64,000 nucleotides of DNA, taken from Halicephalobus mephisto (taxonomy: Eukaryota; Nematoda; Chromadorea; Rhabditida; Panagrolaimidae). The translations under genes and the position numbers were made by a program. The stretch is taken from assembly GCA_009193035.1 (NCBI GenBank), contig SWDT01000185.1, positions 1 to 64,000 on the forward strand, read 5' to 3'. How positions within the stretch are numbered: the stretch's first letter is position 1; the number at the start of each line of letters is the position of its first letter. Below, in pieces: positions 19,984 through 24,669 of the stretch. The notes under the pieces are model-generated. The model saw only the letters and a program-made list of their open reading frames with translations, searched no databases and was not told the DNA's origin.

Positions 19984-20020
19984 AAAATATTGTTTTTGAT
20001 GAATATCCTTGTACTCTAGT

Positions 20021-20335
20021 TTTCAGATAGTATAATGGTAGTACACGTGAATTCAAATTCACGAGACCTGGGTTTGATTTCCGATCGAAGACCGGCAGCT
20101 AGAAGTCTGACTCACAAGCTGCTTGTAGGCTAAAGAAGCGAAGTCCTCTGGATATCTCTCATTAGAGGCTCGGCTGACCAAAAACAAGCTAGATGATAAG
20201 AAGAATCCCAAGGTCCTAGGAACGGAAGGTTTGCACCGACGGATGAGTTGGATCAAAGGTACAAGGGTTTAACTTCAGTATTATTTGTGAACTTTGAATG
20301 TGCGATATGGGAATAAATAGTTTCAAAATAGTTTC
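20021..20335 (+). mobile_element. tRNA-derived SINE, copy 1
   Basis: The 5' ~70 bp resemble a tRNA: an A-box-like TAGTATAATGG, an anticodon-arm palindrome CGTGAATTCAAATTCACG and a B-box-like GGTTTGATTTCC (consensus GGTTCGANTCC). A ~210-bp non-tRNA body follows and the 3' end is a short AAATAG-type tail. It is flanked by imperfect 16-bp direct repeats, ATCCTTGTACTCTAGT (20005-20020) and ATCCTTGTACTGTAGT (20336-20351), the signature of target-primed insertion. The second copy (23327-23637) is highly similar by eye and inverted. A 65-codon frame on the complementary strand of the body is present in both copies but is most likely incidental. Confidence 0.85.
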
Positions 20336-20359
20336 ATCCTTGTACTGTAGTAACTAATC

Positions 20360-21300
20360 GTGTTTAATTGCTTTGAAGACTTAATTATTCAAGTTTGAAT
20401 TTGAGAAAATAAACATGCAGCAAAATTCCTTCCGTGTTGATATAATCGAAAATAGAAAAACAAAAAAAAGCAAAACAAATATTTTCACTTTTAATATAAT
20501 GAATCTGTTTATGTTTTGGACCATGTTTGCTCATTTTTTTCCTCATTCTCGAAATTTGAAATAAAAGGACTAATTCAATTTTTATTAAATCACATAAATG
20601 AAATAAAAAATTATTTAAAAATTTGAAAAAATTTCATTTTTAATTTTACACACATTGTATGTAGTCGATCATGTTCGAAAATTTTCAAGTCTTGATTTTC
20701 CAAATTTGAAATTTAAAAAATTGCGATATTTTTTGTTAAAATACTTGGTTGAAAATATAAAAACACATTGAAAAGACAAATTAGAACAAGAAACTTTAAT
20801 TTTTGTTTTGTTTGTTATGCATTCACAGATCCTGCTTAATGTTTTGAAATCCAATCATCAAAATTTTAATTTAATAAAATAAACTACTACTATTACTAAA
20901 TGACAGTCCCGGTTTTTTTATAGTTGAATATTTTGTTTTTTCTCGTTGTGAAACCTACTATTAGCGACTTTGTTGTGATGATGTTAATCGTTAACTTTTC
21001 CTTCTACCGTAGTAGCATCAATCGAGAAAAAAGTGTCTGAGGCATTGACATTAGTTGATACTATTAACTTTCAATTCAATTTTAGCTAGATGTATTTTGT
21101 GTTTTGAGCTAATGGAGTTAGTCATCACAAAGTATTCATTTTATTTAATTTGTCGATCTCGCTGATTTCTTCTCCTTGTTATTTATTAACTTAACAAGCC
21201 GAAAGGTCTTTGACGGGCTTCAGAGATTAATATAATTCGAATATTTTCATCAATTACAACTAGTTTTTATCAAAAAAATTTTAAATGAAAAAGTATGTTT
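20360..21300. other. Intergenic DNA, no gene seen
   Basis: AT-rich, mostly unique DNA. No frame with protein-like composition or matched splice sites was found. Confidence 0.3.
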
Positions 21301-21308
21301 TGGAACTA

Positions 21309-21495
21309 CAGTGGAATCTCGATATAACGCACCCAGGCTATAAGGCACGGTTTCAGTACATTAGTTTGGCCCACATACAAATTTGTGAGAATTTAAGGAA
21401 TTTTAGTCATATTCGACCCTCGATATAAGACACCCCAGGCTATAAGGCATGATTTGTCCGGTCCCTTGAGGGTGCCTTATATCGAGATTCCACTG
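21309..21495. mobile_element. 187-bp pogo/Tigger-like MITE
   Basis: Ends CAGTGGAATCTCGATATAA and its reverse complement TTATATCGAGATTCCACTG lie directly inside TA dinucleotides (21307-21308 and 21496-21497). The interior repeats the CTCGATATAAG(G)CAC motif, so the element is partly a tandem of its own end. CAGT...CTCGATATAA ends with a TA target are typical of non-autonomous elements mobilised by pogo/Tigger-type Tc1/mariner transposases. No coding capacity. Confidence 0.85.
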
Positions 21496-21499
21496 TATT

Positions 21500-22480
21500 A
21501 TGTTTTTATATCGCAAGACACCAAACAAGAGTTTATAACGTAAAATAATAGTACAACACAAAGGATCCTCAACTCACACCCCACGTTCCCCTTTATAATC
21601 CTTAGTTCAAGGTCACCAGACACGTGTCAGGTGGTCCAAACATGTCTGGTTGGGACGTTTCTACAATAGAAACATTTTAAATCATTTTCAGAATTCATAT
21701 CAAAGCACATTACACGTAAAAGTTATTATTTTGGGATTGTGTTATCTTCTAGCATTCTTCATCTAGAATACTTCAAGACTAGAATTAGCGTCAATGTATT
21801 GAAAATTGACAATGAAATACATATTTGTTATATCTAAGAATGGTTCCAAAACACAACTCTACGCATCGATTGAATACATTGCAATTTGCAGAATCTTATA
21901 GCTTCCGTGATTCCTTTGTCTGAACTGTACATAGAGTTTATATGATATCTTTGTTCTTAGAGACATCGGTGAAGTACTAATTTGCTTGAGTTAGCAATAT
22001 CTGTAAAAAGACAAAAAGATCGACTCTGAATATAGATTGCAATCTTCCGAGTCCTGTGATCTTGAATTTTACTGGATTTGGGTCATTTATAATCGAAAGC
22101 TGATAATTATCTCCAGAACCATCTTTACAGTATTCATGTGTTAAATTTAAAGCAAGTTTGCAGAGGAAACTGAATTCAGGGTGGATGTAAATTGTAATTT
22201 GAAAAATCCCATAACTACACATTTTGTTTTAGTTGAAGTAGGTGTAAAGTGCATATGATATCATTTCTCTCACAATTATCCATACAGTACTCGGTTGTTA
22301 ACTCAATGAATTGCTTTACATAGACAAGAACGTTCAATATAAGGTGAATTTCTGAATAGCCTTTGATTCGTTACATAACACTCATAACTTCCTTATGAGG
22401 GTAGTTCTGAATTTGCTTAGAGTGCACTTAATGTTTGTCGAATAATGCCGCATAAGCAGTAAAAGTAAAAGTTTCCAAGC
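21500..22480. other. Upstream region of the receptor gene
   Basis: Unique moderately AT-rich DNA. A minus-strand frame of 81 codons (21977-22222) has no motif I recognise. It may hold the receptor promoter; no clear TATA box or trans-splice acceptor was assigned, although an AAG two bases before the receptor ATG could serve as an acceptor. Confidence 0.3.
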
Positions 22481-22481
22481 A

Positions 22482-24669
22482 ATGTGGCAGTTACAAGTAA
22501 ATCTCTACAGTCATTTTTGCGGCACAATCGTTTGTATTCCACTCAATATTCTACTTATATATTTGATTTTAACTAAAACGAATAAAAATATGAAACAATT
22601 CAGTCTAATATTGCTTCAGAACTGTGTAATGGACATAATGGCTTCGATGGTTTATTCCTTTTCAGTTCTTGTAAGTTTTCAAATTAACTAGAAATTTCTC
22701 GAAAGTTGCGGAATCTTGATGAAGATTTTCGAGCCTCTAAAACATGAAAATTTTTAAAGCTTTTCATAATCTATAAAAAATTTTTTAAAATCATCCTGAA
22801 ACTTTTGAAAGTTTCCAAGTGATCTTGAAAATTTATGTTTAAACTATTTTGTAACAACTTTTACTTTTATTCCTATTTCGCACAAAATCAGAGGTTACAA
22901 CAATAATTTTTCACTTTTATAATGATTTCATTTTTAGAATCTGGAAATGAATCGAGGTTACATCTTCAACCGAGGAGGAGCTCCGTGGTCGACAACTGTG
23001 TATCCTCCTCCTTGTTACCATGTATCCCTCTACGGATCTGCTTTTGCTATTTCCCAATCTCCAGCAGCAATTCAGTGTATTTTTAGATACTTTGTCATTT
23101 TCAAAAAGAGAACTATTCCTCACTATTACTTCCATATTACATATGTAGTCATTATATGTATATTGTTTCCAGGAGCCTATTGGAACACCAAAAGTTACGA
23201 TATTGTAGACAATATGCCTGAGGCAAAGAGTGTTTTCAAGTCTCTTCATAACTGGAACGAGATTCCAAATGCGAGTTCTACGTTTTGTGCAATCAAAATT
23301 GTGAGTTTTTTCTAGTTACATAGTATTCTATTTCTATTTATTCCCATATCGTACATTCAAAGTTCACAAATAATACTGAAGTTAAACTTCCTTGTACCTT
23401 TGATCCAACTCATCCGTCGGTGCAAACCTTCCGTTCCTAGGACCTTGGGATTCTGTTTATCATCTAGCTTGTTTTTGGTCAACCGGGCCTCTAATGAGAG
23501 ATATCCAGAGGGTTTTGCTTCTTTAGCCTACAAGCAGCTTGTGAGTCAGACTTCTAGCTGCCGGTCTTCGATCGGAAATCAAACCCAGGTCTCGTGAATT
23601 TGAATTCACGTGTACTACCATTGTACTATCCGAGGACAGTTACATAGTATCGTACATAAAAAATTGCAACTTTTATGTGATGAAAATGAAGCGAATATGT
23701 TACAAATGTTATAAGTATTAGATATTCATGAAAATTACCACAATTATATTGTATTTTGTGTTAAATTGACAATTGTTTTAAAAATTACTCATAATAGTGA
23801 TGTTTTTCATCCATCACTTGAGCAACGGTTAGGAGTTTTTATGTAGAGAATTCTATAAAGTTTTCAAAGGAAAATTTCTAGAAGATTTTGGAATTTTACC
23901 CTGTAAAACAGTGTTGATTTGGATTCTGTTAGATCAAATAAGAATGTTCTAAAATCATCCTATTCGAACTAATCTGGAGCTTTCTAAAAAGATCTATGTC
24001 AAATCGAACAGGAATCCTCTGGAATGACTTACAATAAAGCTTAATTGATCCATGATTTCCTAAGCCTGATCTCAGAGCACATAAAAGCCTATCCACGAAA
24101 TCAGTAGATGTTATTTGAGAAAATACTTTTATTTTCTACTGTTTGTAAAAACTTCTGTTATTATTTTTTAGTTTAATGCCTGATATTACGGCCTCTTACT
24201 TACAGTATTTTTTCAGTTATCGGCTCCATCTATTTTCTTCACGAGTTGCCTCTCCCTTGTGAGTAATTCCTACATCGTTATAATTGTCTTCACTTCCTTT
24301 CAAATCCACAGATACCTCACAAAAAATAAAGCCCAAATGAGCCCAAAAACGGCATCTATGCATCAGGACCTAAGTCGTCGTCTGATCTTCCAAACGATTG
24401 TTCCTGGATATTCAGGATTGAATGCCCTCTTGTTGACAGTTCTCTCCTTCCTCATCAAGGATTACGAAGGAGGAATGTTCCAGTATGTATTCATAACTTA
24501 TCCGTGGATCCCTGTCGTCAATACACTGGCTACGCTGTTCTGCATCAAGTCCTACAGAATAGGTGTTCTTAATATCTTCAGCAAAGCCACTGGCCAAAGT
24601 ACAGTAATAGACAACGCTTCTACTACAAGACATATTTTTGTTACAATTTCTCAAAGGGCCATTAGGTAA
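22482..24669 (+). CDS. Nematode seven-transmembrane chemoreceptor-like GPCR (Str/Srd superfamily)
   Basis: Probable G-protein-coupled receptor of the kind expressed in nematode chemosensory neurons. Exons 22482-22670, 22938-23300 and 24217-24669, all phase 0, give 334 residues. TM1-TM2 are in exon 1 (a short extracellular start, then ILLIYLILTKT..K..SLILLQN); exon 2 has an extracellular loop with a Pro-Cys (PCYHVSLYG), TM3 and TM4; exon 3 has TM5, an intracellular loop with SPKTASMHQDL, TM6 (FQTIVPGYSG) and TM7 ending in IKSYRI. The KT...QT.IP and I..YR patterns are characteristic of the Str/Srd group. Intron 2 carries a SINE insertion. Exon 3 ends AG-GTAAAA at its stop, so an alternative splice into 25042 would stay in frame (see findings). 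Exact subfamily and ligand are unknown. Confidence 0.83.
23327..23637 (-). mobile_element. tRNA-derived SINE, copy 2, inside receptor intron 2
   Basis: Read on the minus strand it begins with GTCCTCGGATAG, has A-box-like TAGTACAATGG and B-box-like GGTTTGATTTCC, then the same body as copy 1, and ends in an AATAGAAATAGAA tail. It is bounded by perfect 13-bp direct repeats AGTTACATAGTAT at 23314-23326 and 23638-23650. This copy keeps the tRNA acceptor end better than copy 1: TCCTCGG can pair with TCGAAGA at the 3' side with one mismatch and one wobble, resembling tRNA-Asp. Insertion is antisense to the receptor gene. Confidence 0.88.

Follow-up and report, generated by a model that had tools for sequence, protein, structure and literature searches.

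A tRNA-Asp-derived SINE family in the nematode Halicephalobus mephisto and its probable RTE-like LINE partner

The window analyzed here, a stretch of 64,000 nucleotides from the nematode Halicephalobus mephisto (positions 1 to 64,000 of contig SWDT01000185.1, assembly GCA_009193035.1), carries two copies of a repeat that almost certainly belongs to a family of short interspersed elements (SINEs) derived from the transfer RNA (tRNA) for Asp, with dispersed and independently inserted members. As summarized in Table 1, an inverted-repeat search of the window recovered both copies, each approximately 310 bp long and on opposite strands, in matching segments of 244 nt at 96% and 54 nt at 98%. Their identity of 96% and spacing of 3 kb confirmed the initial annotation, made from the sequence alone, which had described two similar copies in opposite orientation. 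The A-box- and B-box-like words that it had placed at the 5' end were present in both copies, and the direct repeats at their borders, 16 bp with one mismatch for the first copy and 13 bp without mismatch for the second, were likewise verified. The short A-rich 3' tail was also recovered, although its composition was not that of a plain A-rich run: in the family as a whole, the tail consists of short tandem repeats, chiefly (AAATAG)n. In copy 1, both the 5' end and the tail were altered. The heads of both copies spanned the Rfam tRNA model from end to end, and no tRNA was found in the window by ARAGORN.

Table 1. Coordinates of the SINE copies, their parts and related elements
Feature	Location	Strand	Remarks
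SINE copy 1 (W1)	20021..20335	+	essentially full length, altered 5' end
Left target-site duplication, copy 1	20005..20020	+	ATCCTTGTACTCTAGT, 16 bp, 1 mismatch vs right one
tRNA(Asp)-derived head, copy 1	20021..20092	+	Rfam RF00005, 25.9 bits, below gathering 29
A-box-like word, copy 1	20028..20038	+	TAGTATAATGG; by eye, placed by homology to tRNA model
B-box-like word, copy 1	20071..20081	+	GGTTTGATTTC; family consensus GGTTCGATTCC
LINE-related 3' part, copy 1	20232..20317	+	consensus ~213-300; boundary approximate
Short-repeat tail, copy 1	20318..20335	+	
Right target-site duplication, copy 1	20336..20351	+	ATCCTTGTACTGTAGT, 1 mismatch in 16
SINE copy 2 (W2)	23327..23637	-	full length
Target-site duplication at 3' end, copy 2	23314..23326	-	AGTTACATAGTAT, 13/13
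(AAATAG)n tail, copy 2	23327..23339	-	
LINE-related 3' part, copy 2	23340..23424	-	boundary approximate
tRNA(Asp)-derived head, copy 2	23564..23635	-	Rfam RF00005, 27.4 bits, below gathering 29
B-box-like word, copy 2	23575..23585	-	by eye
A-box-like word, copy 2	23618..23628	-	by eye
Target-site duplication at 5' end, copy 2	23638..23650	-	AGTTACATAGTAT, 13/13
3'-end fragment of related LINE, between SINE copies	22858..22893	-	~36 bases; pattern match 22866-22884, 1 mismatch
Second SINE family	L143-L147		contigs C302, C38, C202, C67

The genome searched comprised 59.9 Mb in 331 contigs (the published H. mephisto assembly, according to the part of that report available to us, has 61.4 Mb in 880 scaffolds). 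A phased long-read assembly with 123 primary contigs has been reported as well (PMC12354626). With copy 2 as the query, the best 40 of 93 candidates were scored, the 41st row being a short weak fragment. A 34-nt word from the 3' end gave 67 matches at no more than three mismatches and its reversed control 0, indicating that these matches did not arise by chance, and a 35-nt word from the body gave 63 matches and 0 in the control, all of the matches lying within the known loci as judged by comparing the lists. The union of these searches amounted to 68 loci, including the two in the window, and every one of them could be aligned to the family consensus; the family is thus a small one of about 70 recognizable copies. 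Since flanks of 300 bp were common to two locus pairs only, the copies occupy 66 independent sites. Within these pairs, L010/L021 and L016/L034, the flanks and the target duplications were the same and the SINEs were equal at 294 of 308 and 298 of 311 positions, respectively, and each pair probably represents alleles placed on separate contigs or duplicates. L010 and L021 were also unlike in the 12-bp body unit described below. At two loci, L017 and L020, the sequences to the left and to the right of the SINE were similar to one another over 76-163 bases.

The median divergence from the majority consensus was 4.0% (range 1.0-8.4%), with 641 transitions and 173 transversions, and both window copies were above the median (6.7% for copy 1 and 6.5% for copy 2); L011, L014, and L029 were among the copies of lowest divergence. 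Segmental duplication, or duplication of a tRNA pseudogene, in place of a mobile family would fit the observation that the two window copies are each other's closest relatives (3.4% difference) only 3 kb apart. This explanation must nevertheless face at least 68 loci with flanks common to two pairs only, window copies that differ in their target duplications, and a repeat unit that runs far past the tRNA part, and we give it practically no credence. The proposal of a SINE family rather than a two-copy duplication has accordingly been borne out by the 68 loci, the 66 independent sites, and the duplications that individual copies carry.

These duplications were assessed against mispaired flanks. 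A copy's own target duplication reached a score of at least 10 in 50 of the 68 copies as opposed to 0.7% of 1338 mispaired flank pairs, and a score of at least 9 in 58 copies as opposed to 2.0% of the control pairs. The 50 duplications were 10-17 bases long with a mode of 13, and their left edge favored a T followed by AA, with T before the edge in 30, A as the first base in 36, and A as the second base in 28 of the 50. The consensus 5' end was reached by 43 of the 68 copies (copy 1 starts at position 5), while 24 copies were 5'-truncated, 14 of which had a duplication score of at least 10. Target duplications together with 5' truncations are the hallmark of target-primed reverse transcription. 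A DNA transposon was considered unlikely, because the duplication length varies from 10 to 17 bases and, apart from the two copies themselves, the window contained no inverted repeats of 30 nt or longer.

As to the origin of the head, the family consensus contained an A-box-like word, TAGTACAATGG, at position 10 and the B-box-like GGTTCGATTCC at position 53. The tRNA check on the first ~72 bases gave a fit to the Rfam tRNA model in both window copies (Table 1), and the gathering threshold of 29 was exceeded in seven of eight further loci given to Rfam, with a best score of 42.5 bits; L065, one of these eight, showed no tRNA match at E 0.1. ARAGORN also called a tRNA in the family consensus with an unreadable anticodon, and thus returned no isotype because the anticodon loop is altered. 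Among the tRNA genes of the genome, an Asp(GTC) gene (L142, isotype assigned by ARAGORN) scored 41.5 against the consensus head with 61 of 69 aligned positions equal, and five other Asp loci that were read scored 25.5-27.5, whereas 37 tRNA gene loci of twelve other isotypes scored no more than 12.0; Glu, Val, Leu, His, Pro, Tyr, and Cys lay outside the sample. tRNA-Lys, -Gln, and -Gly were ruled out by score as sources of the head. The acceptor stem TCTTCGG/CCGAAGA was common to L142 and to some SINE copies, such as L030. The sequence comparison thus supported a degenerate tRNA-Asp(GTC) as the origin of the head, no other tRNA gene in the sample being a better source, in good agreement with the Asp-like head suggested from the window alone.

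Between the head and the 3' end lies a body of variable composition. The 44 copies that start within consensus positions 1-5 were 273-492 bp long (median 316), and an approximate word count showed that the numbers of body units vary, with maxima of four for a 33-bp unit, six for a 36-bp unit, three for a 12-bp unit, and nine for a unit of ~10 bp. A single long unit was usual, the 33-bp unit being present once in 52 and the 36-bp unit once in 62 of the 68 copies. Tandem Repeats Finder confirmed two of these arrays, that of the 36-bp unit in L065 and that of the 33-bp unit in L054. Tandem expansions of the 33-, 36-, or ~10-bp units within single copies were seen in L047, L050, L051, L052, L054, L060, L063, L065, and L067. 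The longest stop-free stretch in the six frames of the consensus was 73 codons, indicating no protein-coding capacity, and Rfam matched nothing beyond the tRNA part in the window copies and the eight further loci. The consensus lacks TTTT. It has AATAAA near its end, a word also present at the 3' ends of the long interspersed elements (LINEs) considered next.

The initial annotation had proposed, as a check, to look for a LINE sharing the 3' tail. The exact SINE tail word was found in no non-SINE sequence, all 28 newly fetched loci matching the SINE consensus (L053 in the tail only), and the 35 matches of a shorter tail word were all at known SINE places as judged by comparing the lists. The 3' sides of nine LINEs, out of 49 reverse transcriptase (RT) matches, were read, and a related 3' end was observed in three of them, L087, L093, and L088. 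Against consensus 250-300, L087 scored 57, the maximum of 300 dinucleotide-type shuffles being 28 (0/300), and L093 scored 48 (0/300). BLAST of the tail against the nine LINE 3' ends gave E 2.7e-7 for L087, with 29 bases at 93%. The likeness of the SINE to LINE 3' ends thus covers the last ~50 bases and, against some copies, up to ~85; in copy 1, it is clear from consensus ~250 onward (L087 and L093), and the preceding ~35 bases are matched by some LINE copies only. In 20 additional loci (L096-L115, of which 19 were taken by an end word and one by likeness to L087), the alignment started between consensus 213 and 282, and five of them aligned from 213-230 or nearby with 0/300 shuffles reaching their scores. 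Such a LINE was thus found in part: L087 and L093 share a related 3' end, but the simple-repeat tail of L087 differs from that of the SINE.

The LINEs themselves appear to be RTE-like, a name that we use provisionally on the basis of their anatomy. The L087 element had endonuclease and RT matches in separate frames, and its (AAAGT)n tail begins, by eye, shortly past the last codons. At L116 (element C216, that of L088), endonuclease and RT matches (PF03372, PF14529, and PF00078) were found together in one open frame of 794 aa. The LINE protein showed identities of 88% and 72% with proteins from Halicephalobus sp. NKZ332. The 3' end of L087 returned 40 further genome rows, 37 of the total 41 rows reaching its last 26 bases. 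The extent of the LINE fragment between the two window copies, and a possible imperfect duplication around it, were judged by eye. Two other observations were made by eye on these loci. L111, L112, and L113 carry a short repeat around AGTCATTTATAAAATCTAGTCAC, ending in TGTGCGAAATAGGAATAAA and an (ATTTGAA)-like tail, which is perhaps another LINE 3' end or a non-autonomous element with its own tail type. In L110, an antisense tRNA-like stretch lies just upstream of the truncated LINE end and perhaps represents another tRNA-derived element.

Because their last ~50-85 bases resemble the 3' ends of LINEs, the copies might be regarded as 5'-truncated or internally deleted LINEs devoid of a promoter head of their own. 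We consider this highly improbable, given that 43 of the 68 copies start from a common consensus 5' end that bears a tRNA-like head, that stop-free stretches do not exceed 73 codons, that consensus 74-214 produced a single 11-base match (E 0.69) against 15 LINE loci, and that no LINE with the SINE head and body upstream of its frame was seen among the nine LINE 3' sides and the one LINE frame that were read.

With the copies taken as SINEs, these comparisons point to an RTE-like LINE as the element that probably moves them. As the tail repeats differ, the actual helper may belong to a sister subfamily outside the LINEs read. That the matched LINE is a relative of the true helper, another RTE-like subfamily moving the SINE, is possible, if on balance somewhat doubtful. 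Besides the tail repeats, which are (AAAGT)n for the LINE and (AAATAG)n for the SINE, it draws on the 19-base end word, which had 262 genome matches at no more than two mismatches, SINE copies included, with at least four variants among the 100 matches listed, and only some of these places were read. Against it stand the match of L087 to the SINE over 29 bases at 93% and the four other copies longer than 370 bases with 93-99% identity to L087, which make this subfamily look recent.

Several observations weigh against the reading of these copies as a SINE family moved by such a LINE. At the level of the copies, 18 of the 68 were without a duplication of score 10, and L053 aligned over the tail part only (consensus 213-310) with a duplication score of 3. 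No source was found for the middle of the element (consensus ~74-212) in the comparison with 15 LINE loci. On the side of the LINEs, the tail match of L088 was marginal (score 26, 1/300 shuffles), and L089-L092, L094, and L095, which lay outside the shuffle test, gave no BLAST match to the tail better than E 0.25. L111-L113 were also marginal (1/300 shuffles), and the last 19 bases of L096-L114 do not count as independent evidence because these loci were picked by the end word. Finally, the closest LINE ends in (AAAGT)n and the SINE in (AAATAG)n.

A pathway can be proposed for the directly observed head, dispersed copies, duplications, truncations, and related 3' end. The A and B boxes of the head, as promoter words, would direct transcription of the SINE by RNA polymerase III. 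The resulting RNA would end in a stretch related to the 3' ends of RTE-like LINEs encoding an endonuclease and RT, and owing to this relationship the LINE enzyme would be expected to recognize it. The enzyme would then nick AT-rich target DNA and reverse-transcribe the SINE RNA on site, giving rise to target duplications of 10-17 bp and frequent 5' truncations. Judging by these duplications and by the kinship of the 3' ends, we infer that the LINE acts as a helper in trans.

A T-arm word revealed a second SINE family in the same genome. The word occurred at 57 places, six of which were outside the first family and outside Asp-type genes, and the four of these six that were read had an Asp-type head, matching the first-family consensus head at 59-63 of 71-72 positions, followed by different sequence. 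Of 119 candidates for head matches of this family, the best 40 were scored. The second-family heads scored 44-52 against the first-family head, and the Asp gene L142 only 41.5; since they are nearer than the gene by this measure, the two families probably descend from a common SINE or have exchanged heads, as far as such sequence scores indicate. One second-family copy was read to its end and showed, by eye, an 11-bp duplication, TTCGTTTAGCT, and a 3' end unlike that of the first family. The second family thus resembles the first in its Asp-type head and is unlike it in body and 3' end, the latter judged from the one copy read through.

Neighboring copies were unexpectedly alike. Copies 1 and 2 had 15 departures from the consensus in common and were mutual nearest relatives, differing by 3.4% as opposed to at least 6.6% from all others. 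A test of linked pairs, devised post hoc after the window pair had been seen and based on few pairs among 67 copies (L053 excluded), gave for the six pairs within 20 kb a mean difference of 4.9% versus 7.5% for shuffled positions (p 0.0006), and this effect held at p <=0.005 when any one pair, including that of the window, was dropped. It was weaker for the three pairs at 20-60 kb (p 0.07 by differences and 0.03 by ranks), and the eleven same-contig pairs beyond 60 kb tended in the same direction, differing by 6.8% versus 7.5% (p 0.15; by ranks, p 0.03). When the nine pairs within 60 kb were divided by thirds of the element, the effect was clear in the two outer thirds (p 0.003 for the first and p 0.001 for the last) but not in the middle one (p 0.13).

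For this likeness we tentatively propose that SINE copies lying within tens of kb of one another have been homogenized by ectopic gene conversion, a reading that we hold to be slightly short of an even chance. Alternatively, new copies may have landed locally near their source without any conversion, to which we assign appreciable weight while considering it rather questionable. Local landing is favored by the excess of close pairs over a uniform spread, namely six against 1.4 expected within 20 kb (Poisson 0.004) and nine against 4.3 within 60 kb (Poisson 0.03), contig ends being ignored in both estimates. To our knowledge, no local landing is known for LINE-driven SINEs, and we count this against it. 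A further point on the same side is that the same neighbor pattern in human Alu elements has been attributed to gene conversion within ~10 kb (PMC8230782; this and the reports cited below were available to us in part). H. mephisto, discovered in a deep aquifer, is described as reproducing by parthenogenesis. If gene conversion does operate among these copies, a small dispersed family would provide a natural reporter of it in a genome whose heterozygosity is reportedly maintained, and the inverted window pair, 3 kb apart, would be its clearest case.

The host, whose genome the initial annotation called nematode-like, is a Halicephalobus of the Panagrolaimidae and not a Caenorhabditis-type species. 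An asparagine synthetase exon showed 90% identity to Panagrolaimus sp. JU765 and 82% to Panagrellus. No description of an H. mephisto SINE family was found in the titles and abstract openings of the literature on nematode SINEs, on Halicephalobus transposable elements, and, in part, on Panagrolaimus. The portion of the H. mephisto genome paper that was available calls the repeats of this species highly divergent, RepeatMasker having left 87.3% of interspersed repeats unclassified and a second method still 23.3%, and the word "SINE" is absent from its main text to the extent available; the SINE sequence may sit as an unnamed repeat in the published repeat library or supplements. The family is thus new to the literature searched and ordinary in kind, namely a tRNA-derived SINE. 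Describing the family together with its tRNA source and its likely LINE partner would close part of this gap in repeat classification, document the anatomy of a nematode SINE in detail, and supply markers for retrotransposition and gene conversion without sex, and its modules, sister family, and neighbor similarity are details worth following.

Among nematodes, some SINE content has been annotated in the genomes of Pristionchus species (PMC9297572) and of plant-parasitic species (PMC11118728). As far as those reports were available, these SINEs are software counts or percentages with no anatomy, and they can be likened to the present family by description only. Like tRNA-derived SINEs in general, the H. 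mephisto family has a tRNA-like head of RNA polymerase III type, a non-coding body, a LINE-related 3' end, a simple-repeat tail, and target duplications, and it differs from them by its tandemly expanding body modules. It also resembles the AviRTE-linked SINEs of birds (PMC4844689), in which a separate head is joined to a tail from an RTE LINE. The bird SINEs, however, arose within bird lineages and have heads from sources such as tRNA-Glu, 5S, or 28S, whereas that of H. mephisto is of the Asp type, and their tail has parts of both the 5' and 3' untranslated regions, whereas in H. mephisto it is the 3' end alone that was matched.

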